NCBI GenBank assembly: GCA_018970165.1
Contig: JAGWWZ010000007.1
Span: forward strand, 1 to 51,686
Reading direction: 5' to 3'
Length of the DNA stretch: 51,686 nucleotides
Source of the DNA: Planctomycetota bacterium
Lineage (GTDB): Bacteria; Planctomycetota; Planctomycetia; Pirellulales; Pirellulaceae
Both the position numbers and the translations under genes were made by a program. The notes under the pieces are model-generated. The model did no database searches. It had not been told where the DNA came from and saw only the letters and a program-made list of their open reading frames with translations. This document shows, one piece after another, positions 19,717 through 48,194 of the stretch. How positions within the stretch are numbered: the stretch's first letter is position 1; each line of letters begins with the position of its first letter.

Positions 19717-22269
19717 TCACTTTGCGGGAGCTGACGTGTAACGCTCGCTCTTGGGGTTTCCGCCCGATTGCAGATAGACCAGCAGGTCGATGACTTCATC
19801 GGCCGTCAGTGTATCGAGCAATCCGCCTGGCATCATCGATACTTTGCTAGGCTTGGTATCGACGATATCGTTTCGGTCGAGGTTCACGAAATTGCCTGGA
19901 TCGAGCATGTTGGTGGAAACCATCAACATATTGGCATTGAGGTTGGCAACGCGACCGATGATGGTTTGCTCTTCGGTCTGGAAGACTGTGGCTTCGTATT
20001 GATCGCTGATCTCTTTGCTCGGCTCGATGATGGCCGTAAGCATATCTTTGGGACTGAATCGTTGGCTCGACGCAGTAAGGTCTGGGCCTTGGATTCCTCC
20101 TTGACCGCCGAAGCGATGGCACTTGTAGCATTGGGCAACCGCAAACATTTGCTTGCCTCGTTCGAAATCGAATCCCGATTTCTTCTCGTTGTATTTGGCG
20201 AGCAATTCATCGACCGTCCATTCCTTCACGGTGGCTCGAGGCTTGAGTTCCGCCATAGGGTCCGCAGGTGATGGAGGAGGTCCGACGAGATCTCCGAGGG
20301 ATCTCTTTTCTTCGTCCGATAGCCAACCGATGGCGACCTTACGGATGTTTTCGATGAATCCTCCGAAGGATGCGCCACCGCGAGCCGATGCGACCTGATA
20401 GAACCACTCGAAATAGGCCTTGCGAGTTTCCGGAGTCCACCCTTCCTGAGCGTCGCGCAGGCAGAATGCGTAGTGGATCTGCTGTTCAGCGGATCCGGCC
20501 GAGTGCATTTCTTTAACACATCGTTCGATGATCTTCGGAGCTTGCAGATAGATCAAAACGCGAGCCAACTCGCGATCGACAAGCGCGTCTCCATCCGAGG
20601 TTGGGAAATGGGAATCCAATTGAGCGATGATCTTGGAACGGGTAGCTTCGTTCCCTTCTCCGAGGCGGAGGAAGCTGAGTTGATAGGCTCGTAGCATTTC
20701 GAGTTTCTCAGCGCTGTTGAGTTCATTCCATTTCAGTCTTAGCAGTGCGTTTTGGATGTCGGCCTGATCGGCGGGTGTACCGCGTCGGCTCAATGCGACC
20801 GCCAGCGTGATCGTGGCTTGCGGCGGAAGCGACTGCGCGATGGGGTCTCGCCACAGCGCTGTGTTGGCTTGATGCTCTAAGGCGAGGCGGGCAGCGGTCC
20901 GAATCGAGCGATCTTTGCTGCCAATGTGCCTGAGTGCCAAGTCGACATCGAACTTGGCTCCTGGCAGGTGCATGGCTTCAAGCGAACGTCGCACATTTCT
21001 TGCAGCAGCAGCGGTTGGGTTGTCCGGATACTTTGCAGGTTGCGTGGATTCACTCCCTGTGTACCGAATGCGATAAAGCGCCGATTGCACTTTGCGACCA
21101 CCGATGGTCATGTACATGCAACCCTCACTCGGATGGACCACCATGTCGGTGATCGGCATAGGTGAAGCGCTCACAAAGGGCTCGAAAGTCGATCGGTAAC
21201 TCGCTCCGTCCGCTTCGAGGTTCACGGCGTAGACGACGCCGTAACTCCAGTCGCCGATGAACAGCGCGTTTTGATACTTGGCTGGGAACTTGGCACCGGT
21301 GCCGAAAACGATCCCTGTCGGCGAACCGTAGCCGATGTTGGCCACGGCGCCGAAGCTGTCGGCGAAATACTCCGGCCACTTGCCAGTCCCGTTTCGCCAA
21401 CCGAATTCCGCTCCGCTGATCACATGGTTGACACGAGTCGGTCGATACCATGGCGTGCCGATATCCCATTCCATGTCCGCATCGTAAGTGAACAGATCAC
21501 CGAGTGGATTGAACGCGATGTCGTATTCATTTCGGAATCCCGTTGCGACCAACTCCACATCGGTCCCGTCGGGTTTCAGGCTCAGAATGAAGCCTCCTGG
21601 TGCCAAGCGAGTGGCCATGAAACCGCGTGCATCAGGCATCCGACCGAGCATATGATCTTCGCTCCAAATGCGAGGCACACGCGACTTGTCGATCTTCGTG
21701 GGGAGATCGGTCTGATTCCCAGCGCACATGTACAATCGGCCATCTGGCCCTTCGATGATCGCGTGCGGACCATGCTCTCCTCCACCTTCCAGAGGAATGA
21801 TCCGCTCGATCGTTTCCCACTGATCGTCGCCATCTTTGTCTTGCAGTCGATAAAGCCCTGGGCCAGAGGGAGTCGCCGAAGCATCGTCCTTTTTATCACC
21901 ATTCTTCTCGATGACACCGGTGCCATTGACGTCGATGTAAAGACCATCTTTGGTATGGAGCAAGCCTTGCGCCATGCCGATCTTGATCCCCATATCCTCG
22001 ACGCTTGTCGCCGATGCGGGTTGACCAGGGCCTGCGGGCGTGACTCGATAGATCTTTCCATATTGATCGGAAACGATCAGCCGCCCTTTGAGATCGACGC
22101 ACATCGCGACCCATGAGCCCTGCTCCTTGGCGGGAACTTCGTAAATCAGTTCCACCTCGAAACCCTCCGGTGCCCGAAAGGATTTTGGAGAGGTGGCACC
22201 GAGGCCTTGAGCGTTTGCATACGTTTGCAGAGCGCAAGCAATCCAAGCAGCGAAAATAATCGTTCGCAT
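19717..22269 (-). CDS. Exported PVC-type cytochrome c / beta-propeller (sugar-dehydrogenase-like) protein
   Basis: This large exported protein of about 850 residues combines several modules. A signal peptide (MRTIIFAAWIACALQTYANA) comes first. A six-bladed propeller like glucose/sorbosone dehydrogenases spans about residues 30-430, with repeated PDGRLY-type turns and GEHGPHAI near 168. A HEAT-like helical section covers about 430-640. The C-terminal cytochrome c domain has the heme motif CYKCH near 715, followed by GPDLTASSQRFSPKD. Likely role: periplasmic oxidation of a sugar-like substrate with electrons passed to heme; this is inference from the domains. The ATG at 22269 is preceded by GGGAT, and the longer frame to 22341 adds a poor N terminus. 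It follows the DUF1501 gene by 87 bases and is the last gene of its operon. Confidence 0.93.
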   Translation of the reverse strand: MRTIIFAAWIACALQTYANAQGLGATSPKSFRAPEGFEVELIYEVPAKEQGSWVAMCVDLKGRLIVSDQYGKIYRVTPAGPGQPASATSVEDMGIKIGMAQGLLHTKDGLYIDVNGTGVIEKNGDKKDDASATPSGPGLYRLQDKDGDDQWETIERIIPLEGGGEHGPHAIIEGPDGRLYMCAGNQTDLPTKIDKSRVPRIWSEDHMLGRMPDARGFMATRLAPGGFILSLKPDGTDVELVATGFRNEYDIAFNPLGDLFTYDADMEWDIGTPWYRPTRVNHVISGAEFGWRNGTGKWPEYFADSFGAVANIGYGSPTGIVFGTGAKFPAKYQNALFIGDWSYGVVYAVNLEADGASYRSTFEPFVSASPMPITDMVVHPSEGCMYMTIGGRKVQSALYRIRYTGSESTQPAKYPDNPTAAAARNVRRSLEAMHLPGAKFDVDLALRHIGSKDRSIRTAARLALEHQANTALWRDPIAQSLPPQATITLAVALSRRGTPADQADIQNALLRLKWNELNSAEKLEMLRAYQLSFLRLGEGNEATRSKIIAQLDSHFPTSDGDALVDRELARVLIYLQAPKIIERCVKEMHSAGSAEQQIHYAFCLRDAQEGWTPETRKAYFEWFYQVASARGGASFGGFIENIRKVAIGWLSDEEKRSLGDLVGPPPSPADPMAELKPRATVKEWTVDELLAKYNEKKSGFDFERGKQMFAVAQCYKCHRFGGQGGIQGPDLTASSQRFSPKDMLTAIIEPSKEISDQYEATVFQTEEQTIIGRVANLNANMLMVSTNMLDPGNFVNLDRNDIVDTKPSKVSMMPGGLLDTLTADEVIDLLVYLQSGGNPKSERYTSAPAK

Positions 22270-22356
22270 GATGTCGATCCCGAGTGGAGAAAAATTCAAT
22301 ACGCCATGAGGGTATCTTTTCCGGTTGTGCACCAGATGCAAGATACCAAACCGAAC

Positions 22357-23823
22357 CTAAGCGAACAGCTCTGTCACGGCTTGTGCTTTGACAAGCTCGC
22401 GAGGCTGATTCAGGTGGTTGTAGACGATGGTTTCGGGGTCGATTCCGAACGCGTGGTAAATCGTCGCAAGGAGTTGGGATGGATGGACAGGGTTGTCCAC
22501 CGGAGCGCTGGCGGTCTTGTCGCTGGTACCATGCACATATCCACGCTTGATACCGGCTCCAGCGATTACTGAGGTATAGCAATATGGCCAGTGGTCGCGA
22601 CCATCATCGCTATTGCCGTTGCCGCTGGTGCTGACACCTCGTTCCGGTGAACGCCCAAACTCGCCGACCGCAACGACCAGCGTATCCTCGAGCAGACCGC
22701 GCTGGTCGAGATCTTCGATCAGTGTGGCCAAGCCTGCATCGAGCATTGGGCCCGATTGGTTCTTCATCCGCTTGGACAAGTCGACGTGATGATCCCACGA
22801 ATGGTTATCGCTGTTGGCGATCTTGGGCCATACCACTTCGACGACGCGCGTGCCAGCTTCGACGAGTCGACGAGCGAGCAAGCAACTTTGACCGAAGGTG
22901 TTGCGACCATAGGCATCGCGCAATACTTCGGATTCTTGACTGAGATCGAATGCTTCTCGAGCCTTGCCGGAAACCACCAAGGAGAGGGCCTGCGAGAAGT
23001 ATTCGTCGAGTTGTTGGTTCTCGACGGCAGCGTTGATGGTGGGCATTTGCTTGTTGATCAGATCGCGAAGGGCAGCACGTCGCTGGAGGCGTACTGAGAA
23101 GACTTCGGGACGAAGTTGCAGGTCGCTAACGTTGATGCGATCCATCTTGTTCATGTCCAGGTCATCTCCCTCGGGAAAGAGGGTGTAGGGATCGTATTCC
23201 TTGCCGAGGAATCCGGCCGAGCCACCCTTGCCGACCACGTTGGATTCTTGAAGAGGCCGAGGAAGCATCACGAACGGCAACATCGGCTCATCGACAGGAC
23301 GAAGCCGAATGATGTTGGAACCGAAGTTGGGGAAATCTTTCGGGCTTGGGGGTTCCAACTGTCCGGAGGGACTGACCTTGTCGGTCGTGTAGCCGGTCAT
23401 CATTTGATAGATGGCTGCGGTGTGGTTGAACAAGCCGTTGGGCGTGTAACTCATCGATCGGATCATGGTGAAGCGATCGTTGACCAAGCTCAGCTTGGGC
23501 AGGTTTTCGGTGAACTGCACTCCAGGTAGCTTCGTTGCGATCGGTTTGAATACGCTCTTCACTTTATCGGGGACATTTTCTTTGGGGTCCCAGAGATCCA
23601 AGTGGCTTGGACCACCCTGCAGATAGACCAAGATCATTCGTTTGGCGCGGTTCCAACCGGGAGAGCCTGAACCATCGTTGGCCTGTGCCTGCTGCAGACG
23701 CAACAGATTGGTGAGGCTCAGGCCGAACAGACCCGATGCTCCTACGCGGAGCACATCACGGCGGGTGACGCCAAGACCCGAATCGCACAAATCCCTGCCG
23801 GCCGATCCGATGATTCGCCACAT
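22357..23823 (-). CDS. Tat-exported DUF1501 protein (sulfatase-like fold)
   Basis: The 488-residue product belongs to DUF1501, an alkaline-phosphatase-superfamily-like group common in planctomycetes and without a proven activity. The N terminus carries [16 protein letters not shown], a twin-arginine signal. Characteristic segments are [20 protein letters not shown] near residue 75, [16 protein letters not shown]-like text near 150, [15 protein letters not shown] near 365 and [12 protein letters not shown] near 405. The product ends TELFA. The start at 23823 is chosen because AAAGGA lies nine bases before it and the longer frame overlaps the upstream gene. It sits between the giant PSD1 protein and the propeller cytochrome. 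DUF1501 and DUF1549/DUF1553 genes are nearly always paired, so they probably act together in the periplasm. Confidence 0.94.
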
Positions 23824-23861
23824 GATCGTATGTCCTTTGATGAAAAAACTGCTGAAATGAA

Positions 23862-26800
23862 TTAGTGATTGAACAAAAAGGCGGGGCTGTTGATCAGCGC
23901 CCATGCCAAATCCTGAGCTGCAGTGAGTCGAGCATTGCTCAATTGCGATTCGCTTTCCTTAGCATCGGCACGCATGCGGAGCAAACGGGAGTCGTCCGGC
24001 AAAGGTTGTGAAAGTCTCTCGATTCGTTTTCTGAGGATCACGACCTGTTCGTCTTCGGGAAGGGGTTGGCTTTCCCGCTGAACAACCGCTCGCAGTCCCA
24101 TCAATTCGCTCGAAGAGGCGCGGAAATAGTCGAGTCCTTCCTTGGCGATTTGAGGATTCCATTTATCACGCGGAACCGCTCCGATTGCCGTGAGAGATTC
24201 TGGCAGCCCCAACATCAATTCCCCCTCGTGCTTGCCGACACTGACGCGGAATCGTCCGAGTCGATGGTTTTCCGCGTCATGGAATTGATGGATGCGCCAT
24301 TGCAGGACTTCACCAGCCTGAAGATTGAGCGGCTCTGCCAACGCGAAAACGGCCCAATGCTCTGCCCCGGTCGCGCCAAAAATTGCCCAACCTCCCTGAT
24401 CGTTGAGTTTGTCGTCAATGACAGCAGCGGCAGAGAATCCGGCTTGATCGAAATCGGTCAGCCCCTTGGCAAGTTTGATTTTGCGAAGCGTTTCGGGACG
24501 CTGGGGGTCGCCGGCGAACAATTCCAATTCGGTGACCACAAAGTTTCCGTTACTTGCGGAGAGTCCGGGGCCTTGATTGGGTAGATCGGGTGCGGTGAGA
24601 GCTTCCAAGCGCACGCTGGTGATGTTTGCATTGGGGGCCACCGTTTCGATCGTGTAGACCCCTTTACCGGCAGCTCCATGGGCGCGAATCGATCGGTCGC
24701 TTTGCGGTACCAACTGGGCGCCGGTTGTCGATTCCGTTTTGCGTGCAGCGAGGGTTTGCCAAATGGATCCGTTGCGGCGAGCGTCGATGAATTCTTGAAG
24801 CTTGGGTTCGAGGCCTGCTTCAAAGGCAGCCACGGCGGCATTGGCGGCAGCCAGTCTTTCTTGCCTCGCTTTTTCTGCCGCCTCGCGTTGGGCAGAGATC
24901 GATTGTTGACGTTCCTCGAGTCCCTTCTGAGCGGTTGCCCGATCGTTTTCCAGAGCTTGCAATCGCTTGGGACGTTCTTCGACCCACCAAGCTTCGCGTT
25001 GAGCCAATTGCTGCGTGAGCGTCTCATGGTCGCGTTGGATTTGAGTCAATGTCGAAAGGGCCGCGGTGATTTCCTCGGCCGTCGGTCTGCGATTGAGGAC
25101 TCGCACGAACAGTTCATCCACCAGTGCCGCGTCATCGGGCGTGCTCTCGACAATCTTGCGGATCGCGTTTTCGGGATCCGCGATCGCACCTCCGAGGGTT
25201 GGACCGCTGACCAGGGCCATGATGGATCCGAGCCGCAGATCGTTAGAGCGCTCGCATTCGCAGGCACTCTCGCGGGGCGGACGTCCCAGGTTGTTCAAGA
25301 AACCATCGGGGAGCCCCGCGTCGGCATCGGCCAATGCGGCCGCTCGCGTTCCTGGAGGAAGCCCCGGCAACTTGGATGTCGCGCCGGTGACTTGGTGAAT
25401 CGCATCGAACAGAACTTCTGCAGGCAATCGTCTTGGCAGAGCTCGCGAGTAGTTTCTATCGTCGTCGGCATTCCATTGATTGGACTCGATCGACAGTTGA
25501 TACACATCCGAAGTGCAGATGGTGCGAATCAAGTGCCGGACATCGAACGAGTGATCTTTGAAATCCTTTTCGAGGAACTCCAGAAGCTCAGGGATACTCG
25601 GCGGATTCCCAGCGCGGATATCGTCGATCGGTTCGATCAGCCCTTTGCCTAGGAGGTAGCCCCACATTCGATTGACGAAGCTCTTGGCAAAGTATGGGTT
25701 GCTCGGGGCTGTGACCCAGGAAGCGAATTGAACGCGGCGCGATGCTCCCTCGGGAGCGGTGTATTGGCAATCGAAGGGCAACTTCGGTGCAACGACTTGT
25801 TGCGTCCGTTGATGCTTGATGTCCCCCGATCCGGTATCGAAGACTTCCTCCCACAGGGGCTTGGCTCCTTCGACGGCGGTACCGCCGATCGTCGCGTTGC
25901 CCGAGGCTTCGTCTTTCTTGAAACCGATTTGAGAAAAGTAAGCGGCGGTCTCGTAATATTGATCCTGGGTCCATCGTTCGAAAGGATGGTCATGGCATTT
26001 GTTGCAGTTGAATCGGACGGCGAGGAACAGGTGTGTTGAATTCTCGACCGTTTCCTCCGGAGTACGAAGGATCTTGTAATAGGATGCTGCGGGATGTTCG
26101 CGGTTGGAGCCGGTGGCTGTCAGGATCTCGTAGACAAAGCGATCGTAGGGTTTCTTTTCGGCGATGCTCGCGCGGATCCAATCTTTGAATTTCGCAGCAC
26201 CTTCTTTGCCGAGGAACTTGGAGTTGACCTGCAACAGGTCCGACCACTTGTTGGTCCAATGATCGGTGAATGCATCGCTGGCCAATAGGGTATCGATTTC
26301 TCGTTCGCGTTTTGTTTTGGAATCGGTCGTGTCGGCCAGGAATTCGCGCACTCGCTGGGCCGTGGGAGGCAGCCCTGTCAAATCGAGGTGAATGCGCCGG
26401 AGGAACTCCGAGTCGCTGCAGATCGAAGAGGGCTGGATCTTCATCCGTTCCCACTTGGAAGCAACGAAGCGATCGACGGGATGAACGGCTGCGGTTGCCT
26501 TGGCCTGAAATCCAGATCGATCTCCCATGACCGTCAGCGTCGTCGCCGCGTAGGCACCTTCAAAGCGAGCGAGGACGGGCACTTCACCACGGCGAAGCGC
26601 TTGGACGCGAGCTCCTTCGAGAACCGCTCCGACCTCGTTGTTCCCCGACTCGAGAAATGCTTCGCGCGTCACATCGCGGGTAGCACCATCGGCATAGGTA
26701 GCCACAACGCGAAGCTGCTGGATACCGCCTGGGAGTGGGATGACAGGGTTGTTGGGAGATACTTCGATCTTCGTGACTCGTGGAGTTTCGAGACGAAGCT

Positions 26801-28991
26801 TCGCGCCGCTAGAGATCCATTGATAGAGAACCAGTGCATGATTGTCTCCTGGCTCGAGCAACTTGCCTCCTGTATGCGGAACCTGCCCGAGCGGTTTGGT
26901 GAGCATCAACGAATCGGATGGAGAGGAAGCATTGACGCGGCGGCCTGCCAAATCATCGGCGAGCGATCGAACATCATAGATCGGATCGTAGCCGCGCAGC
27001 GATAGTTTGAAACCATTCTTGCCCGCCTGCGCCCCATGGCATGTCCCAGCGTTGCAGCCGAGGCGCGAGAGCGCAGGGTTTACGTCTCGAATGAAGTCGA
27101 CTGCGTAATCGCCATTCATGTTCGATTGAACGAGTATCTCTTTTTGGTGCGAACCTACTTGAACAACGATGCGAGATTCGCCGGGAGCGACAGATTGGAT
27201 CCAACCTCGGTCCGAAACCCAAGCCTTCTGCTGGTCGGCAACGAAACTCGATTGCGAAGTCACATCGACTTGATCGCCATTGTCCATTTGTGCCATGACA
27301 ACAACCTGTGCCGAGTCGTTCCAGTTGGCCAAAGAAACCGACTCGGGATAGACCGTGATGGCAGCGATGCGTTCGATCGGAACCAACTTGTGTTCCAGTT
27401 CTTCGTTGCCGGGTGCTTTGCGAGGGGCAGACCGTTCGTCGCGATGAGCCTGTGCGATCTTCGACAAGCGATCGAACCTAGACGCGATCAACGCTTGATT
27501 GTTCACTTGGGATGCTTCCCGTTGCGGCGTTGCATCGAAATCAGTGATCGCTGCCTTGTCCGCGATCCCCCAAACTCGAATCCTGCCATCGGTGCCGCCT
27601 GCAGCGATGCGACCGTTGGAATCCAGGGCAATCGAATAAATCGCCGCGTCCTTGATGTCCCATGACCCGAGAAGTTGCGGTTGAGCTGTGACGTAAGTTT
27701 CGAGCTTCTTGCGTTCTTCCGGGGTGATGGAAAAGATCAGCTTGCCTTGGATCGCGCGAATTTCGTCGGGCACCTGGCCATCGACATCGTAAGCCCAAAC
27801 CTTGACAACGCTTTGATTGTCCAAGGTAGAGGCTGCGGCGAGGTATTTTCCATCGGGACTGACCGCCACATCGAAGATCCGTCCAGGCATCGGATCGAGT
27901 TTACGAATGAGATTCGCATCGTCGCCGATGACGCGAGCCGTTTGGCGGAACACGCGATAGATCTTGGGGACGCCATCGGCTCCACCGACGAAGATTTCAT
28001 TGCGTTGCGGATGGCGTGCGATAGCCTGGATACCACCTCGCAAAGCACCCGGAGTGATCGAGGTCACGTTGTCGATGAATCGTTCGGTCTCAACCTCCGT
28101 CAACTTGACGGTCATGTCGCGGCTGACCGAGAGCAAGTGCTTGCTGTCCGGAGTGAAGGTGGTAGCTCGCGGCCAATCGTCGTGAGCTCGCTGATAGAGA
28201 CGTTGCTTTCCCTCGAGATCGATCGCGCGGATCGAATTGTCGGTCATGCCGAATGCGATCAGCGATGAATCGTGCGACCAGGATAGACCGAAGATCGTAT
28301 CACCGCCGAGTCCTACGCTCCGTTCGAGAGCGTTGGATTGTGTATTCCAAAGCTGAAGTTCGCCTGAGACGCCAGGTTCCCCAGCTGCCACTGCCAACCA
28401 CTTGCCATCGGGAGAAAAACGAATCGATTCAAGACGCGGACTCATCCCGATGAAACGATTCGAACGGCTCCAATCCTGAGTGTTGAATACGAGCGCTTCG
28501 TGGAAGCCCGTCACAGCGAGTTTCGATCCATCCGGAGAAAAGTTGAGCCCTACAATATTGAGCGGCCCGGAGTATTGAGGAGGGTGTTCGTTGCTGTAGC
28601 GAGGACCGGTATCGACCACATCCATCACGGCACCGGCCGCGATCCATCGCCGAATAGTATCGATCTCATCGGGCTTGAGAGGGGGAAGATTCTTGGGCAT
28701 CTCTGCCTTGCCATCCACCAGCGAGATCTCCTTCATCAAGTAACTCGCATCCGGATTGCCCGGAACGATTGCCGCTTCGCCCGACTCGCCACCCTGCATC
28801 ATCCTGGCCGGGTCGGTCATCAAATAGCTCCCCTGCTTCTTCGCCTCCTGATGACAGGCGAAGCAGTTGGCTCGCAGGATCGGCATCACATCGCGAGACC
28901 ATGAAGGACTCGGAGGATCGGCGGCGATCGCAGGCAATGCCAAAACAGTAACCAAAGCGACGGCCAAGCCATTTACGAATCGAACTCGCAT
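23862..28991 (-). CDS. Giant exported cytochrome c / WD40 / DUF1549 / DUF1553 (PSD1-type) protein
   Basis: The 1709-residue exported protein has these modules in order. A signal peptide ends LPAIAA. A planctomycete cytochrome c-like domain has CFACH at about residues 43-47. A WD40-type propeller (about 130-500) contains repeated [11 protein letters not shown]-style blades. A bacterial Ig-like unit lies near 570-630. A CNAGTCH motif (two cysteines four apart, then CH) lies near 645. DUF1549 (about 840-1010) contains [12 protein letters not shown] near 994, and DUF1553 covers about 1080-1300. A charged coiled coil spans about 1320-1400, and a galactose-binding-like C-terminal part ends FLFNH. 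It probably works as a periplasmic heme enzyme on polysaccharides; no member has a firm reaction that I know. The ATG at 28991 has AGG eight bases before it. This is the first gene of a three-gene operon driven by the promoter at 29125-29153. Confidence 0.95.
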
Positions 28992-28995
28992 AGAA

Positions 28996-29032
28996 ACAAC
29001 CTGTTCGGGAGACGACAACCTGTTCGGGAGAC
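28996..29032 (-). repeat. Tandem 18-bp duplication in the leader and RBS of the giant PSD1 gene
   Basis: ACAACCTGTTCGGGAGAC (plus strand) occurs twice, at 28996-29013 and 29015-29032, with one base between the copies. Each copy carries CAGGTTGT on the minus strand, and the copy nearer the gene provides the AGG ribosome-binding core before the ATG. Confidence 0.8.
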
Positions 29033-29124
29033 ACGTGCTCGGGTTCGCAGTACGGAAGTTCCGACGACGGATCGTTCCCAAGTCGTAGGTGGGGGGTAGG
29101 AAGGATCGTTAAATCCCAGTGCTC

Positions 29125-41347: not shown

Positions 41348-42052
41348 TCAACGCGATGAGGACGGAAGCTCGCGAATCCGAATGTTGCGATACCAAGCTT
41401 CCGTCGGTGGCCCGGAGTGAATCTGAAGCGCGATCACTCCGCTCTTGGCGATCTTGGGATCGGTTTCGGTGAACTCCACCGTCAACGATCCATTGAGCCA
41501 AATCTGGATGTGATTGTCGATAGCTCGCACCATCAACTGGTTCCAATCCCCGTTCTTGAGCGCAGCAACCACGACTTTGGGATCTCCCTCGGCCAGCATC
41601 TTGTTGCGCCGCGATTCGTCATACAAACCGCCCCAGACGGGTCGATTCCAAGCCGAACCGATATCGCACTGATAGCCGCTGACCTCGGTCGAGTCGGGGA
41701 CCCGGGATGTGCGGAACTGAACGCCGGCATTGTCGCCGTTCCCTTTCAGCTTCGCCTCCAGCTTGAGTTCGAAATTCGTGTACGTACACTCGGTGCAGAG
41801 AAACTCATTGTGCGGGATCGTACGCTCCAAAGTCCCTGCGACAACCGCACCGTTCTCCACGCGAAACCAATCCAGGTTCCCTTCCCAACCCTTCAGACTC
41901 CGGCCGTCGAATAACGGTTGAAAACCCTCTTCGAGAGGGACCGTTGTCGTCTTCTCGTTCGTTTCTTGAGACATGACCTGCAAATGCAAACTGAACGGGC
42001 AGCTTAGAAGAGCCAAGCCTGCACTCCATAAACGAATGTTCTTGAGCATCAT
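41348..42052 (-). CDS. Exported DUF1080 protein (3-keto-disaccharide hydrolase-like)
   Basis: The product is about 234 residues: a signal segment (WSAGLALLSCPFSLHLQ) followed by one DUF1080 domain, a concanavalin-like beta-sandwich now often labelled 3-keto-disaccharide hydrolase. Typical segments are FQPLFDGRSLKGWEG near residue 42, FELKLEAKLKGNGDNAGVQFR near 95 and IALQIHSGPPTEAWYRNIRIRE near the end. The start is taken at the ATG 42052; a GTG at 42067 is the alternative. It is the last gene of the sigma-factor cluster, beginning 37 bases after the membrane protein. It probably acts on oxidised sugars or binds glycans outside the cytoplasm. Membership in the sigma regulon is inference. Confidence 0.88.
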   Translation of the reverse strand: MMLKNIRLWSAGLALLSCPFSLHLQVMSQETNEKTTTVPLEEGFQPLFDGRSLKGWEGNLDWFRVENGAVVAGTLERTIPHNEFLCTECTYTNFELKLEAKLKGNGDNAGVQFRTSRVPDSTEVSGYQCDIGSAWNRPVWGGLYDESRRNKMLAEGDPKVVVAALKNGDWNQLMVRAIDNHIQIWLNGSLTVEFTETDPKIAKSGVIALQIHSGPPTEAWYRNIRIRELPSSSR

Positions 42053-42089
42053 GTTTTTCTCACTCACAGAATGAATTCATGCAGAGATC

Positions 42090-44366
42090 TTACAAGTGAC
42101 CGAGCAGGGCATGGACCAATCGCTTGCTCGCCAGTTGTCGATCTCCCTGGGACCAATCCAGCAATTCGGTTGCTTGCTTGCGCTCCTCTGCAGATGGATA
42201 GCGCGACAAGCATGCAAGGAACGCTCGCTCGATGATTGCTTCCCAATCGAGCGAACTCTCCGCGAGTTGAAGGGAAACTTCATTGATCCGCTCATAGGGA
42301 TGCTGATTGGAGATCTCGTAAGTGATGCGATCGGATGTCCATGCCAGTGCCGTCTGTGGGTCTGATGGAATGGGTGGCGTTTGCTTGCCGATGTTTGTCG
42401 GATTCTTGGCTCCGGTCGGGTTTGTCGCTGGTTGCGCCAATACGCCTGACGAAGGATTCTCCTCGGACGTTTTGGTCCAACGGGATAAAGCATTCAAGCG
42501 GTCGAGTGCTCGACCATTCTCTGTGGTTGCGGGATAGTTGGCAAAGAGCCTAGTTCTTTGTTGAAGGGAAGCCAGAACCGAGGGATCCAGCGCGAGGAAT
42601 TCCTGAGCATTGACAGAACGGGACTCGAAGGACATCGGAGAAGACATAACGATCCATGAAACGATCTGCCGTAGGCCCGCCTGTTGGGTTTGAGCCTCCT
42701 GAGCCAGGAAATCGAGCAGATCTTTGCGATCTTCGAAACCTTCCGAATCCGTCAATCCAATAGTCGGAACGAGCGGCTGGCCGACGAGTCGTTTCCATAC
42801 AAAGTCGACCATAGCCTTCCTGGCCAGCGAACTGTCCTCGAACCACTTGGCCAAACCGGCTCGCGGATCCTCGCTATTGGGGATCGCCTTGCCATCGGGA
42901 CAGACGGGAGAAACGATTGTCACCCTTCCTTCGGCATCCGACACATACAGTCCTTTTTTGTCTGTGGGCTTGGATTGAGCCGGGTTGAAGACGGATGCAA
43001 AGGCAGCCGCATTGCCGAGAACTGTTTCGGTAGAGAGTGTTTCGCTTGTGATTGCAGAAAAGGGAATCGCGGGAACACCCGATAGGCGTGAACCTTGAAG
43101 AGCAAGGGTCTCGAGAGCCGACCATTGATCCAGTGTTCGTCCCGCAGGGCTTCGACCACTCGCAGCAAGCAACTTCGCGTTCGACTTCTTACCGGCCGCG
43201 ATCCAGCGACGCAGCCAGAATGCTGAGGGATCGTTTCCTTGAAGATCACTGCTGACCAAACGACCTTCGATTTGCCCTAGGGACTCGTTTTGCTGAATCG
43301 ATTGCTGCAGCCACGCGTCGAATACCTTGAGCGCGTCTTTGTCATCGATTGGCATGCTGCGATCAAGATAGTAATCGCTCAGTGCACTGGCCCAATGACG
43401 GTCGAATTCCTCCGACTCGATCCATCGTTGAGCTAATGCTCTCGAAGCATCCAGCGACGGATTGGCTGCACCTGCCTTGCGGCCCCACTCCCGTTCGGTA
43501 TCGGTTGGCAAACGACCGATCAGGACCCAGGCCAATCGATCCTCGAGCGCTCGCAGATCGGTTAACTTGCCGGGGGTGATCTTTAAGCGATCCCACAAGT
43601 GTTCGAGTTGCTGATCGATCACAGCGACTACTTGTTGTTCGCTCTGCGAGTCGGTTTGAGTCTGCGAGTCGGTTTGAGATGGTCTAGGTGGGCGAGACTC
43701 CTTGGACTGAACAATGACCTCGGGCCTCATATCGGCTTTGGGCTCAGGCTTTGCAGTTGATTTGTCGATGGGTTGGGTCGCCGCCACCGCATCGGTTGGC
43801 GTCGGGGGAATCGGTGGTTCAACCTTCGCTTGCAATACAGGAGATGGCGTCGACTCATTTTTGGACTGGGCGACATCCGCCTTATTCTCGAATAGCGATT
43901 CGGAGCCGCTGCCGATGGGGGGAAATTCCTGGGTAGGGATTTGCGTGGTCAAAGGCCGCTTGGCCTCGCGGGAACGCCAGAACGGATAAACAGCGATCAC
44001 CCCGAGGAGCGAAGCGGCGAGAGCCAGCGCGCCCCAACGCGTCAAGGGATTTGTTGTCAAGGGATTTGTAGAGTGGTTTAGCGTTGTCCCGACTCGGGAC
44101 TTGCCGCGACGATCGGCTTCGACGTCTTTGAAGGCTCGATTGACGGCCGCGATGAGTTCGTCGTTGGTGAACAGGGGGGTGTCAGCGCTCTGATTCTTTG
44201 CGGCATGGTGGATCGCATCCAGGTTGCGCAGGAGGTTGGGAGGCGCGTCCTCACCGAGCCATTCCCGGAGCAGGGAATCCATGGCGGGGTCGGGAGGGGA
44301 ATCCCCATCGTTTCCTTGAGGGTCGTTTGGCCCTTGAGGCTGGACGGGAGGAGGAATGGCGTTCAT
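42090..44366 (-). CDS. Single-pass membrane protein with heme-less DUF1549/DUF1553-like exterior; candidate anti-sigma factor
   Basis: The 758-residue product begins at an ATG that overlaps the sigma-factor stop (ATGA). Residues 1-105 are acidic/polar and presumably cytoplasmic (DSLLREWLGEDAPP, FTNDELIAAVNRAFKDVEAD). A single helix, RWGALALAASLLGVIAVYPFW, covers about 108-129. A long Pro/Ser/Thr/Gln linker follows, and the rest resembles DUF1549 (AWVLIGRLPTDTEREWG near 275) and DUF1553 (MVDFVWKRLVGQPLVPTIG near 515; CLSRYPSAEERKQATELL near 725). The CxxCH heme motif of true family members is absent. The N-terminal part lacks the HxxxCxxC zinc pattern of common anti-sigma factors. Coupling to the sigma gene and the topology suggest an anti-sigma sensor; this is inference. 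Confidence 0.85.
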   Translation of the reverse strand: MNAIPPPVQPQGPNDPQGNDGDSPPDPAMDSLLREWLGEDAPPNLLRNLDAIHHAAKNQSADTPLFTNDELIAAVNRAFKDVEADRRGKSRVGTTLNHSTNPLTTNPLTRWGALALAASLLGVIAVYPFWRSREAKRPLTTQIPTQEFPPIGSGSESLFENKADVAQSKNESTPSPVLQAKVEPPIPPTPTDAVAATQPIDKSTAKPEPKADMRPEVIVQSKESRPPRPSQTDSQTQTDSQSEQQVVAVIDQQLEHLWDRLKITPGKLTDLRALEDRLAWVLIGRLPTDTEREWGRKAGAANPSLDASRALAQRWIESEEFDRHWASALSDYYLDRSMPIDDKDALKVFDAWLQQSIQQNESLGQIEGRLVSSDLQGNDPSAFWLRRWIAAGKKSNAKLLAASGRSPAGRTLDQWSALETLALQGSRLSGVPAIPFSAITSETLSTETVLGNAAAFASVFNPAQSKPTDKKGLYVSDAEGRVTIVSPVCPDGKAIPNSEDPRAGLAKWFEDSSLARKAMVDFVWKRLVGQPLVPTIGLTDSEGFEDRKDLLDFLAQEAQTQQAGLRQIVSWIVMSSPMSFESRSVNAQEFLALDPSVLASLQQRTRLFANYPATTENGRALDRLNALSRWTKTSEENPSSGVLAQPATNPTGAKNPTNIGKQTPPIPSDPQTALAWTSDRITYEISNQHPYERINEVSLQLAESSLDWEAIIERAFLACLSRYPSAEERKQATELLDWSQGDRQLASKRLVHALLGHL

Positions 44367-44902
44367 CGTTTCGTTTTCTCTTCCAGGCATTGCCTGAGTT
44401 GCAATTTGGCGCGTTGCATCAAGTTCTTCGCGCCGTGTTCGGTAATACCCAGCGAGCGGGCAATCTGCTCGCGGGTTGCATTTTCACTAAATCGCATTTT
44501 CAGCGATTGCTGAGCGCGTTTCGTCAACCGGGAAAAGCAATCGGCCAATGCGTCGATCACTTCGTTGCCCGAGGCATCGCATCCTGCCCATCGACTCCAA
44601 TCCCGATCGAGCATTTCCATATCGTCGGTGACGGCGAATCGTTCTTGTCGGCGACGAAGGGTGACGAGCAAGTGGAACGCGACGCGTCTTAGGTAGGAAG
44701 CGGTGGCTGCTTGGCTGAAGTTCTGAAACGGATGCTTCAGCACAGCCACGAACGTTTCCTGGGTCAGATCGTCCGCTAGCGAGGGATCGCAACCGATCGC
44801 TCTCAAATATCGCCAGACACCCGTCTGATGCTCCGCGATCAAGGTCTCCGCATCCCAGGCAGCATCTGGCGAATTTGAGGAATCGGTCAGTTCATCGAGC
44901 AC
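44363..44902 (-). CDS. ECF-type RNA polymerase sigma factor
   Basis: The 179-residue protein is an extracytoplasmic-function sigma-70 factor. Region 2 covers about residues 20-88, with RAIGCDPSLADDLTQETFVAVLKH (the DDLTQETF core) and the -10-binding helix YLRRVAFHLLVTLRRRQ. Region 4 covers about 118-170, with the helix-turn-helix NATREQIARSLGITEHGAKNLMQRAK. It would direct polymerase to a small set of promoters, probably including its own cluster. It starts one base after the DUF1501 stop and overlaps the candidate anti-sigma gene by four bases. The ECF subgroup cannot be fixed by eye; it looks like the planctomycete type with a membrane partner. Confidence 0.94.
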   Translation of the reverse strand: MLDELTDSSNSPDAAWDAETLIAEHQTGVWRYLRAIGCDPSLADDLTQETFVAVLKHPFQNFSQAATASYLRRVAFHLLVTLRRRQERFAVTDDMEMLDRDWSRWAGCDASGNEVIDALADCFSRLTKRAQQSLKMRFSENATREQIARSLGITEHGAKNLMQRAKLQLRQCLEEKTKR

Positions 44903-44903
44903 G

Positions 44904-46178
44904 CTAAGCGAATAGTCCTTTGATCAACTTTCCGCTGTTGGCGATCTTCATCGGACGGCCATTGCGGCTGGTGAATGTCGTTTCCAACGAGATACCCAAA
45001 GCGTGGCAAACAGAAGCCATCAGATCTTCCGAAGAATAAGGTTCGGTAGCGACCTCGGTACCATCTTCATTGGTTGCGCCGATCGCTTGTCCACCTTTGA
45101 TTCCTGCGCCGCCGACCACCACGCTCCAAGACCGGGCCCAGTGATCTCGGCCAGCATCTGCATTGATGCGCGGTGTGCGAGAGAACTCGCCCATCCAAAC
45201 GATACAGGTATCTTCGAGCAAACCTCTTTCGCTCAGGTCTGCAACCAGCGCGCCCATGGCTTTGTCGAGAACGGGCAGACGGTCGTTGGACAGCGTGCGG
45301 AAGATGTTTTGGTGATTATCCCAACCACCCAGATCGACTTCGACGAACGGAACTCCTTGTTCGACCAATCGTCGTGCCAACAAGCATCCTTGGCCGAACC
45401 CGTTCTTGCCGTATCGTTCCTGCACGTCGTCTGCTTCCTTCTCGACTTTGAAGGCTTCCATCTGCTTGCTGGTCAGCAGATCGAAAGTTTTTCCGAGAAC
45501 CTTTTTGTGATCTTCGAGAACAGATCCTCGTTTTTGCGAGATGAAGGAGTTTTCGATAGCTTCAAGAGCGAAGCGTCGCTGGGCCAATCGATCGGAATCG
45601 ACACTCATCTCGAGATTGCGAACGCGACCGTTGCTGGTGACATTGAACGGAGCCCAGGCCATCCCCAGGAAGCCGGGACCTTCGCTTGCTCCGCCGACCG
45701 AAACGAAAGGTGGAATTTCTAGATCGGGTCTCTGCGAGATCAATTCATGAGCGATAACCGCGCCGTAGCTTGGGTAGTCGACATTGGCATCGGGAACATA
45801 TCCGGTGTGCATGTAGTAGCGACCGCGATTGTGATCGGCTTCGCGCGTGCTCATCGAGCGAATGATCGCCATGTGATGCATCTGCTGAGCCATCGAGGGC
45901 ATATGTTCCGAGATACGAACATCGCCCGAGGTGCTGATCTCTTTGAATTCTCCGCCGTTGTCGCTTCCAGGCTTGAGGTCCCAGATATCCATGGTCGATG
46001 GTCCGCCACCCATCCATAGGAGGATGCACGACTTGCGGTTCTTTTTGAGTGTATCGGCATGGACTCGAAGCGAATGGCCAAACGAAAGGGATGCGCCCAC
46101 CATGGCGGTTGCTCCCGCGGCATGGCTCATGAAGTGTCGTCGGGTCATTCCCCGGGGTGTTGCGAATCGGTTCCACAT
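44904..46178 (-). CDS. Tat-exported DUF1501 protein, second copy
   Basis: The 424-residue DUF1501 protein has a twin-arginine signal, PRGMTRRHFMSHAAG. Family segments are SCILLWMGGGPSTMDIWDLKPG near residue 52, MAIIRSMSTREADHNRGRYYMHTG near 105, VDLGGWDNHQNIF near 290 and IVWMGEFSRTPRIN near 335. It ends KGLFA, matching the TELFA end of the copy at 22357. The start at 46178 has GAGGT seven bases upstream; the open frame continues to 46463, but that part overlaps the preceding gene. It follows a DUF1549/DUF1553 gene by 77 bases, the usual pairing. It may act on sulfated or phosphorylated polymers; this is unproven for the family. Confidence 0.94.
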   Translation of the reverse strand: MWNRFATPRGMTRRHFMSHAAGATAMVGASLSFGHSLRVHADTLKKNRKSCILLWMGGGPSTMDIWDLKPGSDNGGEFKEISTSGDVRISEHMPSMAQQMHHMAIIRSMSTREADHNRGRYYMHTGYVPDANVDYPSYGAVIAHELISQRPDLEIPPFVSVGGASEGPGFLGMAWAPFNVTSNGRVRNLEMSVDSDRLAQRRFALEAIENSFISQKRGSVLEDHKKVLGKTFDLLTSKQMEAFKVEKEADDVQERYGKNGFGQGCLLARRLVEQGVPFVEVDLGGWDNHQNIFRTLSNDRLPVLDKAMGALVADLSERGLLEDTCIVWMGEFSRTPRINADAGRDHWARSWSVVVGGAGIKGGQAIGATNEDGTEVATEPYSSEDLMASVCHALGISLETTFTSRNGRPMKIANSGKLIKGLFA

Positions 46179-46255
46179 AGGTCTTACCTCAAAATAGTCT
46201 TGCAAAGCATTGCGAACAGAGAAGAGTAGGGTTGTTATCGATGAGTAAACAATGA

Positions 46256-48016
46256 CTAGTGAATAAAGATGAATTCGTTGCTGTTCAAAATTGCCCACCA
46301 CAAATCCTGCAGCATCCCGCCGACATCTCGTTTTCGAGCATCCATCAGCTGTGTGGCTATCGTCAGTTCCTCTGGTTTCGCCTTTCGGCCAAGCCCGGCA
46401 ATGAACAGAAACTGAACTTTCTCTTGCGGCGAGGATTTGTACTGCGATAGTTTTTGCAACCACGATCCAGGTTCGATGGAAATCGCATCCTTAATCAAGT
46501 CGCCGTTGAACATCATCAAGCTTTGAGGAATCGAACCGTTGAAGGTGGTGGTTTCATCCCCTTCATCAGTCCCGAACGCGACGATAAACTGCCGCATCCA
46601 ATCATCGCGGCGGCGTTGCTGTTCGTCGAGATTTCCGCGTCGACCGGCTTGGGTTGCCACCGTCAAGGACTGATACAATTGCTCAGCCGACATCTGGCGG
46701 GTGTAGAAGTGCGAGAACTTGGGAAGTTCGCCGAGCGTCGGATCATCGCTCTCGTTTTCTTTGATGCTGCGCGATGACAATTGATACGGCTTAGACATGG
46801 TGATCCAAACAATCAATTGCTTCAAATCGTAGCTCTTGTCCCGAAAGTCTTTGGCTAGTTGCTCGAAGAGCTCTGGGTTGGAAACCGGGTTATGCGGCCC
46901 GAGATCATCGATTGGCTTGGTGAATCCATAGCCCAAAAAGTAGGCCCACATTCGGTTGACGATCGCTTTATCGAGGTAATCGCTCTCCATCATGAGATTG
47001 CCTAGCTCATCGCGACGATTGACTTCCTTTACGTAGCCGCTCTTATCGATCGCAGTGCCGTCGATAAATACCGGATAGGCAACCTTCGTCATCCCGTTGC
47101 GCAATTGGAAATAGATTTCGGCTTTGCTCGGATTGCGTCCTTGGCCCGCAAAATCCTCATTGATCAATTCGATATGGTCGATGTCTCGCGTACCGGATGC
47201 AAATCGACGCAATGCTCGGGACTGACGGAAGAAGGCGTTGAACTCCCAGAACTTCTGTTGCTTCCACTGATTGAATGGGTGGTTGTGGCATTGCGTACAC
47301 TGCACTTGCAGCCCCAAGAAAATTCGCGATACGGCAGCCGTCGCTTGGACTCCATCTTCTTCATTGACCTTCATCGCTAAGAAATTAGCGGCACCGTTAA
47401 AGTTTTCAGTCCCAGGCCGTGTCGTGCCGGTCGCCGTCACCAGTTCTCGGACCATGGTGTTGTAGGGTTTATTCTCGGCGAAGGAATCGCGGAGATACTT
47501 TTGCATTCCCTCGCGGTTGGTCAGCGATCGCTCCTCCATCCCACCGTTGCGACCAATCAAGATGTTGGTCCAGACAGTCGACCAGTTTTGGGCGTAATCC
47601 GCCGTATAGTTCTCATCGTTCAGGAGGCGGTTCACGAGCAGGTACCGCTTGTCGGGTGAGCGATCGTTGGCAAATGCCGAGAGTTCCTCGTAGCTTGGAA
47701 TGCGTCCGAGAATGTCGAGGTAGACACGGCGACACCATTTCAGCTCATCTTCAACAGGCGAGGGACGGATCTCTGCATCCTTCCAAGTCGCCTCCATGGC
47801 GGCATTGATCAATTCCACTTGCCGGGGCAGGAGCAATCGCTTGCTGGTTGCGGGATCTGGATCATCGCCGCTCGGTTTCTGCGGGGTTGGCTTTTGTGGA
47901 GCGGTTTGGCCGTTGGAGATTCCAGCGTGAGAAAGAATCGCCACCGCCAACGTGAAGCATCCCGCAAGCTGCACGGCGGATCTTTGAATGATTCGGCTAA
48001 TTTGAGTTTTTCGCAT
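46256..48016 (-). CDS. Exported DUF1549/DUF1553 protein with c-type heme motif
   Basis: The 586-residue product has a signal peptide ending SNGQT. DUF1549 (about residues 70-270) contains CRRVYLDILGRIPS near 94 and the heme motif CTQCHNHPFNQW near 238. DUF1553 (about 335-580) contains VNRMWAYFLGYGFTKPIDDLGPHNPVSNPELF near 357 and YDLKQLIVWITMSKPYQLSSRS near 400, and the product ends FIFIH. Unlike the 1709-residue relative at 23862 it has no PSCyt1, WD40 or Ig-like parts. It is probably periplasmic and a partner of the DUF1501 protein encoded next. It is the first gene of the sigma-factor cluster. The reaction of this family is not known to me. Confidence 0.94.
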   Translation of the reverse strand: MRKTQISRIIQRSAVQLAGCFTLAVAILSHAGISNGQTAPQKPTPQKPSGDDPDPATSKRLLLPRQVELINAAMEATWKDAEIRPSPVEDELKWCRRVYLDILGRIPSYEELSAFANDRSPDKRYLLVNRLLNDENYTADYAQNWSTVWTNILIGRNGGMEERSLTNREGMQKYLRDSFAENKPYNTMVRELVTATGTTRPGTENFNGAANFLAMKVNEEDGVQATAAVSRIFLGLQVQCTQCHNHPFNQWKQQKFWEFNAFFRQSRALRRFASGTRDIDHIELINEDFAGQGRNPSKAEIYFQLRNGMTKVAYPVFIDGTAIDKSGYVKEVNRRDELGNLMMESDYLDKAIVNRMWAYFLGYGFTKPIDDLGPHNPVSNPELFEQLAKDFRDKSYDLKQLIVWITMSKPYQLSSRSIKENESDDPTLGELPKFSHFYTRQMSAEQLYQSLTVATQAGRRGNLDEQQRRRDDWMRQFIVAFGTDEGDETTTFNGSIPQSLMMFNGDLIKDAISIEPGSWLQKLSQYKSSPQEKVQFLFIAGLGRKAKPEELTIATQLMDARKRDVGGMLQDLWWAILNSNEFIFIH

Positions 48017-48068: not shown

Positions 48069-48194
48069 GCAACCGCTTCAAGGGACGCGGTTTAGCGACT
48101 CTATCAATAAGTTCCTTCGTTCTAGCACACCCTTGCTCGAATTGTACTCACTGAGTGGGCCACTTAGGACCGTTTGTTAGGCGTGATTCCTGTA

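Follow-up and report, generated by a model that had tools for sequence, protein, structure and literature searches.

What is a membrane protein that resembles a secreted DUF1549-DUF1553 enzyme doing directly downstream of a sigma factor gene? The question is raised by an operon in contig JAGWWZ010000007.1 of a Planctomycetota bacterium of the Pirellulaceae (assembly GCA_018970165.1), whose 51,686 analysed nucleotides we refer to as the window. The operon encodes a secreted DUF1549-DUF1553 protein (the enzyme), a DUF1501 protein, an extracytoplasmic function (ECF) sigma factor, the membrane protein (the sensor) and a DUF1080 protein. To our knowledge, no function has been established for DUF1549, DUF1553 or DUF1501 proteins. 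The open reading frame (ORF) coordinates and Pfam matches agree with the five-gene cluster laid out in an initial annotation of this DNA, including the order of the genes, their coordinates on the minus strand (Table 1), the single base between the DUF1501 stop and the sigma factor start, and the ATGA in which the sigma factor stop and the sensor start overlap. Here, we propose that the sigma factor works together with the sensor, a single-pass membrane anti-sigma candidate whose outer domain descends from a DUF1549-DUF1553 protein, as a dedicated circuit that regulates itself and serves one operon; we consider this reading the best overall explanation and hold it with moderate confidence.

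In its outer part, the membrane protein consists of a diverged DUF1549-DUF1553 unit. Against Pfam, the window sensor scores 46.9 bits for PSD1/DUF1553 (cut-off 28.5) and 28.3, 28.4 and 29.9 bits in separate scans for PSCyt2/DUF1549, which places it at the line for the latter (cut-off 29.8). A profile-profile comparison of 19 sensors of the genus (the window's included) with 24 operon enzymes returned a probability of 99.9% over 460 columns (E 5.8e-31), which bears out the homology that had been claimed for this part, and more distant sensors gave 99.8% (E 8.3e-28; 26 sensors, of which the program used 24). In Pfam scans at E <= 0.001, PSCyt2 was found in 19/19 genus sensors, 24/26 distant sensors and all 23 fusions whose DUF1549-DUF1553 unit is near-intact, and PSD1 in 10/19, 8/26 and 23/23, respectively. 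The enzyme itself has no relative among PDB sequences at E <= 1. All 19 genus sensors share an invariant LAQ tripeptide (mostly LAQP), located at window sensor residues 643-645 (positions 42432-42440) in a poorly modelled loop and present also in the consensus of distant decayed sensors.

The resemblance was accompanied in the initial annotation by the remark that the outer part has no CxxCH, and Pfam and a three-frame check confirm both for the window sensor, which thus lacks the motif of a c-type cytochrome. At the corresponding site, the DNA of the window differs from that of relatives by substitutions and length changes, and CxxCH was not found in any of the three frames of the sensor stretch, which rules out a simple frame error hiding the motif. 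As a property of such sensors in general, the lack of CxxCH had to be rejected. Our sample was drawn from 80 named loci, which were the best of the 205 found, together with five further loci, and took in sensors with a length of 580 residues or more; CxxCH is present in 75 of 75 other sensors, the window's being the sole one without it, and of the 10 shorter or missing sensors that were left out, two short ones (L079 and L088) visibly carry it. The motif is likewise present in all 12 of the further full-length fusions described below. The window copy is therefore an exception that lost the haem motif.

The pattern of residue loss makes the same site stand out. Retention was scored over 156 columns that are invariant (97% or more) in 62 enzymes, and 49 sensors, the window's included, retain 17-30% of these columns; we refer to them as decayed. 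Within the decayed set, C240, C243 and H244 of the CxxCH are each kept at 0.98, the other best-kept enzyme-invariant residues being W78, W145, W357, F434 and Q476. The second histidine of CxxCHxH, H246, stands at 0.00, although both the enzymes and 15 outgroup paralogs keep it at 1.00. Decayed sensors in general have thus lost most of the enzyme and kept its predicted haem site. Because the two cysteines and the histidine are among the few enzyme-invariant residues kept in these 49 proteins, we predict that the general system is a haem-c membrane anti-sigma factor, with the haem covalently attached.

The pairing of sensor and sigma factor is conserved well beyond the window. A search of 60 genomes (the window's own included) with the sensor as query gave a clear homolog in 24 of 26 genomes of the same genus; in the two others, G003 and G004 (77% and 83% complete), it gave only weak matches to other proteins. 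The enzyme-DUF1501-sigma-sensor order, for which a search in other genomes had been suggested, was found in the loci of all 24 genomes (the sensor being cut by a contig end in some) and, since it recurs in this way, is not due to chance; the enzyme, DUF1501 protein and sigma factor are 61-90% identical to those of the window. Across the order, a profile of the sigma factor matched in 97 of 296 genomes at E <= 1e-40, mostly once per genome. A sensor ORF follows the sigma factor in 77 of the 80 named loci and the remaining three end at a contig edge. Of these 77 pairs, 64 have overlapping ORFs, 10 are separated by no more than 20 bases and three by more, some of the overlaps being inflated by upstream start codons. 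Two genus genomes show a broken sensor, possibly an effect of draft assembly: in one it is split into two overlapping ORFs (L043/L079), and in the other its last part lies on a different contig (L012/L076, the part being L076).

As in transmembrane anti-sigma factors, the gene conserved beside the sigma factor encodes a cytoplasmic part followed by a membrane helix. Before this helix, most sensors carry a 34-residue motif, D...D..L.E.LGG..PPDL...IL; in some genus sensors, the one in the window among them, it has been eroded. In the window's own genome, the profile of this motif (A7) matched the window sensor at E 0.0066 and its only other match had an E of 2.3. In eight other genomes, all nine motif matches (E <= 0.01) were downstream of this same sigma factor, as the next gene in seven genomes and about 1 kb off in G042. 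Among NCBIfam models, the one matched most often, if weakly, was NF052375 ("anti-sigma factor"), found at E <= 1 in 7/23 fusions and 5/26 decayed sensors with best E values of 1.3e-4 and 4.3e-4, respectively; bit scores, where given, are 20-23 (cut-off 100). In addition, more distant sigma factors of this type (L169, L173, L175, L176) are followed, in 4 of 4 loci scanned, by membrane proteins that combine this motif and helix with a VWA/YfbK_C outer part; three of these proteins match NF052375 at E <= 0.001. A motif that stays with its sigma factor while the outer part is swapped behaves as expected of a modular anti-sigma factor. One genome (G058) has both sensor types (L168 and L169). The earlier view of the membrane protein as an anti-sigma factor is therefore supported in part: the conserved pairing, the finding of the motif only near this sigma factor in the nine genomes searched and the weak NF052375 matches argue for it, the last of these coming from some relatives and not from the window protein. 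In sensors of the Stieleria type (L112, L113, L121, L125, L129), the presumed sigma-binding motif is repeated in tandem, with two or three copies, which might let one sensor hold several sigma molecules.

Between the helix, which reaches hydropathy maxima of 1.5-2.8 in relatives, and the outer domain lies a linker estimated at 107 residues in the window and at 71-135 (median 90.5) in 76 sensors. The AlphaFold2 model of the window sensor has a mean predicted local distance difference test score (pLDDT) of 66.8 and a predicted template modelling score (pTM) of 0.61, with most outer-domain blocks at 70-96 and an uncertain N-terminus, and a model of the Blastopirellula marina fusion is similar (mean pLDDT 69.0, pTM 0.57). 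Given such a long disordered linker, a signal would be more likely to expose the linker to proteolysis than to pass rigidly through the helix.

Where did the sensor obtain its outer domain? In 12 of 20 further loci from the order, the sigma factor is followed by a full-length fusion of anti-sigma region, membrane helix and near-intact DUF1549-DUF1553 unit, which retains 78-92% of the enzyme-invariant residues; eleven of these fusions come from other families of the order (f5, f6, f7, f9, f10, f15) and one (L177) from the family of the window. The same solo fusion arrangement, with DUF1501, is seen in L067 (f15), B. marina (L131) and L156. The other eight of the 20 loci comprise one cut by a contig end (L159), the four with the VWA-type sensor named above, and three that were not resolved (L171, L172, L174). 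A separate enzyme is found in the window's family and in other loci among the 80. Decayed sensors were seen only together with a separate enzyme (45/45 loci with judgeable upstream DNA, four more not being judgeable), versus 14 with and 10 without it among 24 judged loci whose sensor is not decayed (three more not judgeable). The Fisher p value for this association is 5.8e-6, which is only a guide because related sequences are not independent.

Three trees were computed. The first (28 of the 62 enzymes, 24 near-intact and 3 intermediate sensors, 19 of the 49 decayed sensors and 15 paralogs) placed 18 of the 19 decayed sensors at the base of the ingroup, probably through a long-branch effect. 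The second comprised 16 enzymes, 21 near-intact sensors and 11 paralogs, and the third 16 enzymes, 18 near-intact sensors, the 12 order-level fusions and 9 paralogs. In the third, enzymes and near-intact sensors stand apart from other DUF1549/1553 paralogs (support 100/100). All enzymes fall into a single clade (100/99), and fusions from the other families show no supported grouping with either side. Hence, the proposal that the sensor was recruited from the enzyme family holds as far as the homology and the grouping of near-intact sensors with the operon enzyme are concerned, and recruitment from the enzyme of this very operon is made doubtful by the solo fusions elsewhere. Because the fusion appears to stand alone in other families, the reverse of recruitment may apply, with the free enzyme having been released as a copy of the fusion.

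A predicted promoter element would link the circuit to its operon. The hexamer GAGTAC precedes the lead gene in 69 of 90 regions (62 upstream of an enzyme and 28 upstream of a sigma factor) versus 5/90 on the reverse strand, and 200 shuffles gave a mean of 8.9 and at most 18. The full form, TGAGTAC-N15..18-CGYT, occurs in 45/90 regions, in 0/90 reversed regions and at most once in shuffles, and a relaxed form in 59/90, 0/90 and at most three, respectively; among 53 aligned sites the spacer is 16 in 36 and 17 in 17. The element stands before the sigma factor in solo loci and otherwise before the enzyme, a placement that would be expected had the present order arisen from a tandem copy of the unit. 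In the 5.2 Mb genome of the window, TGAGTACA-N15..17-GCT has one match, the window copy, versus 7 for the reversed control; since the pattern was chosen with knowledge of the window copy, information comes only from its absence elsewhere. With a looser pattern, 13 of 16 genomes had no more matches than the reversed control and three (G141, G235 and G032) had slightly more, so that no larger regulon shows and a few extra targets are possible. Dyad counting without an anchor returned mostly lineage-specific words. The single occurrence of the window-form element in the genome suggests an autoregulated circuit of one operon, and makes the enzymes of that operon a plausible target of the predicted sigma circuit.

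How might such a circuit work? The computed parts of our proposal are the homology, the gene order, the retention of CxxCH, the promoter element and the linker, and to these we add, by inference, sigma binding, haem attachment, the signal, proteolysis and the direction of the split. A short cytoplasmic motif of the membrane protein would hold the sigma factor; from there, the helix and then a linker, disordered and about 100 residues long, would lead to the outer domain, which comes from a DUF1549-DUF1553 protein. In nearly all relatives, this domain, with its one haem-c site (CxxCH), would report the redox or ligand state outside the membrane, most likely that under which the DUF1549-DUF1553 and DUF1501 proteins encoded in the same operon operate. 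The signal would expose the linker to proteolysis, and the freed sigma factor would transcribe the operon from TGAGTAC-N16/17-CGYT, with enzyme, sigma factor and sensor rising together. Originally, a single protein probably acted both as DUF1549-DUF1553 enzyme and as anti-sigma factor. Duplication would then have yielded a copy that was secreted as the free enzyme and a copy that, in several lineages, shed most enzyme residues and kept the haem site; the lineage of the window has lost this site too. A bolder version, which we offer tentatively as a possibility, is that in several planctomycete families the haem-c enzyme doubles as the anti-sigma factor: the DUF1549-DUF1553 reaction and the binding of the sigma factor responsible for the protein's own synthesis would both fall to a single membrane protein, coupling turnover or electron flow outside the membrane directly to transcription. 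The window's family would later have split the two roles, which left a haem sensor without the enzyme, and the window's lineage would have lost even the haem.

Several observations weigh against the proposed circuit or parts of it. An approximately unbiased (AU) test did not reject a single clade of all fusions (p 0.268 and 0.288 for the second and third tree), which leaves the direction of the split undecided; the order of fusion first and free enzyme later is drawn from the spread of the architectures over families, not from the tree. No separate enzyme gene was found beside the 12 order-level fusions, a negative limited by the upstream DNA, of which less than 4 kb could be read in five of them (L158, L160, L163, L165, L166). 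Two partly decayed sensors (L143 and L149; retention 0.35-0.36) have neither an enzyme nor a DUF1501 gene that we could find beside them. The relaxed promoter form is missing from 31/90 lead regions, six of which have a version with one or two mismatches. As for the N-terminus, the window protein has no match to NF052375 at E <= 1, N-terminal profiles found no solved relative among PDB sequences, and the anti-sigma region is short, with block pLDDT values of 28-71 in the window model and low values in the second model too. Foldseek comparison of both sensor models with the PDB gave no match with E <= 0.001. Lastly, haem cannot be the signal in the window, whose sensor is without the motif, unless the function has been lost there.

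The loss of most enzyme-invariant residues from decayed sensors (retention 0.17-0.30) would also be accounted for if the outer domain were a protein-protein decoy that mimics the enzyme and senses free DUF1501 protein or a shared polymer, the CxxCH only stabilising the fold. This is close to the view of the initial annotation and we regard it as unlikely, if still deserving serious attention. It fits the open frame that the window protein keeps without CxxCH, and it fits those order-level loci in which DUF1501 directly follows the fusion. There are only five of these among the 12 (L158, L161, L163, L168, L170), a count that tells against the circuit as we propose it, and the existence of several fusions without an adjoining DUF1501 gene tells against a decoy as well. 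Moreover, the fold alone would not make two cysteines and the haem histidine stand out at 0.98 in 49 decayed sensors.

An N-terminus without a solved or confidently predicted anti-sigma fold leaves room for the membrane protein not being an anti-sigma factor, and serving as a positive regulator or scaffold for the sigma factor, or as a partner of the enzyme in electron transfer, linked to the sigma factor by no more than a shared operon. We find this improbable in view of the conserved sigma pairing, a motif that occurs near that sigma factor only, the weak matches to an anti-sigma model and the swap to VWA proteins. Least probable to us, and quite improbable in its own right, is a sensor gene that is decaying without function in the lineage of the window. 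The missing CxxCH would agree with such decay, as would the divergence from the nearest relative, to which the sensor is 41% identical versus 86% for the sigma factor, 90% for the DUF1501 protein and 84% for the enzyme. Fast change is common to the other sensors of the genus, however, 18 of which are 21-41% identical to that of the window. The frame of 758 residues is also open, PSD1 is above its cut-off, genus-invariant columns are kept and the promoter element is present. We continue to prefer the dedicated circuit of sigma factor and membrane anti-sigma candidate, the features of which are collected in Table 1.

Table 1. Features of the operon and of the sensor, with positions in the window
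Feature	Position	Strand	Basis and remarks
Predicted ECF promoter of the operon: TGAGTAC (-35), 17 nt, GCT-type -10	48124..48150	-	Element conserved upstream of lead genes
Secreted DUF1549-DUF1553 protein (free enzyme copy, E), CTQCHNHPF	46256..48016	-	Pfam PSCyt2/DUF1549 3.3e-48, PSD1/DUF1553 9e-25; signal peptide by eye from translation
DUF1501 protein, probable twin-arginine translocation (TAT) signal	44904..46178	-	Pfam DUF1501 7.6e-105; TIGR01409 TAT signal 17 bits
ECF sigma factor	44363..44902	-	Pfam Sigma70_r2 and r4_2 above cut-off; TIGR02937 59.9 bits (above cut-off); TIGR02989 72.2 bits (below cut-off)
Sensor (S), membrane anti-sigma candidate with DUF1549-DUF1553-derived outer part, 758 aa from ATGA start	42090..44366	-	Pfam; profile comparison; AlphaFold2 model
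N-terminal motif of sensor, LL.E.LG...PP type, presumed sigma-binding	44238..44297	-	Best profile A7 match in own genome, E 0.0066
Single transmembrane helix of sensor, residues 108-134	43965..44045	-	AlphaFold2 model; hydropathy maximum 1.82
Disordered linker of sensor, residues 136-238	43653..43961	-	pLDDT < 50
Outer domain of sensor, diverged DUF1549-DUF1553	42093..43652	-	PSCyt2 at residues 250-378, PSD1 at 502-608; mostly pLDDT > 70
Site where relatives carry CxxCH; motif absent in window	43020..43064	-	Alignment, DNA comparison, three frames
DUF1080 protein, now named 3-keto-disaccharide hydrolase	41348..42067	-	Pfam 4.3e-42

The remaining genes call for few comments. The sigma factor has both regions expected of an ECF protein above their cut-offs (PF04542 36.5 bits, PF08281 34 bits), and its match to region 3 is below cut-off (16.6 bits). 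The DUF1501 ORF opens at 46463 and, judged by eye, its probable start is the methionine at 46178. Among the loci read, a DUF1080 gene lies directly downstream of the sensor only in the window and its nearest relative (L039 = L078), and is for this reason probably a recent addition to the operon. The window holds a second DUF1549/1501 cluster at 19720-29081, in which a 1739-residue protein with PSCyt1, WD40 repeats, PSCyt2 and PSD1 is followed by a DUF1501 and a cytochrome c-like protein. The genome as a whole has 59 DUF1549 matches and, for cytochrome c synthesis, a partial ResB match (2.1e-9), which we count in favour of the proposed circuit.

An ECF gene beside a PSD1/PSCyt2 gene has already been noted in Rhodopirellula, in passages of PMC2754498, which cites Studholme et al. 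(2004) for the proposal that the ECF factor RB10049 of R. baltica regulates RB10051 (PSD1 and PSCyt2) and reports that RB10049 goes up in each of the three stresses tested (heat, cold and high salinity). The likeness to our system, compared by description only, is that of an ECF gene adjoining a gene for a two-domain PSD1 and PSCyt2 protein; the difference is that those passages describe a regulator and a regulated gene and mention neither an anti-sigma factor nor a membrane helix or haem sensor. With the class I transmembrane anti-sigma pairs of RseA, RskA and RsiW, as described in parts of PMC7406223, the system shares adjacent and mostly overlapping genes, the arrangement of cytoplasmic part, helix and outer sensor, and a likely autoregulated promoter. 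It departs from them in that its outer part is a DUF1549-DUF1553 cytochrome-like unit and its N-terminus has a short PPDL-type motif with only weak matches to an anti-sigma model and, in the window, no cysteine and thus no zinc motif. The window's outer domain is homologous over its length to the PSCyt2/PSD1 proteins of Planctomycetes and differs from them in lacking CxxCH and most invariant residues, in its membrane anchor and in its presumed regulatory N-terminus. Finally, the planctomycete ECF sigma factors linked to WD40 domains, in the portions of PMC8567305 that treat them, are alike in being lineage-specific ECF signalling; in our case the Pfam scan reported no WD40 for sigma factor or sensor, and the anti-sigma candidate is a separate membrane protein. 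We recognised no haem anti-sigma factor or DUF1549 sensor in the ECF and planctomycete literature searched, of which PMC7406223, PMC8103513, PMC8567305 and PMC1569441 were covered in part.

Judged from sequence, then, the system is real, conserved and more general than could be seen from this one locus: a candidate membrane anti-sigma factor derived from a haem-binding enzyme family. Together, a single operon, its one predicted promoter site and a sensor from the enzyme's own family provide a direct handle on these proteins, since the cue that releases the sigma factor should reveal what the enzymes act on. If our proposal is true, haem-c domains would join the sensor repertoire of anti-sigma factors, and intermediates of the split between enzyme and sensor would still be present in living lineages.

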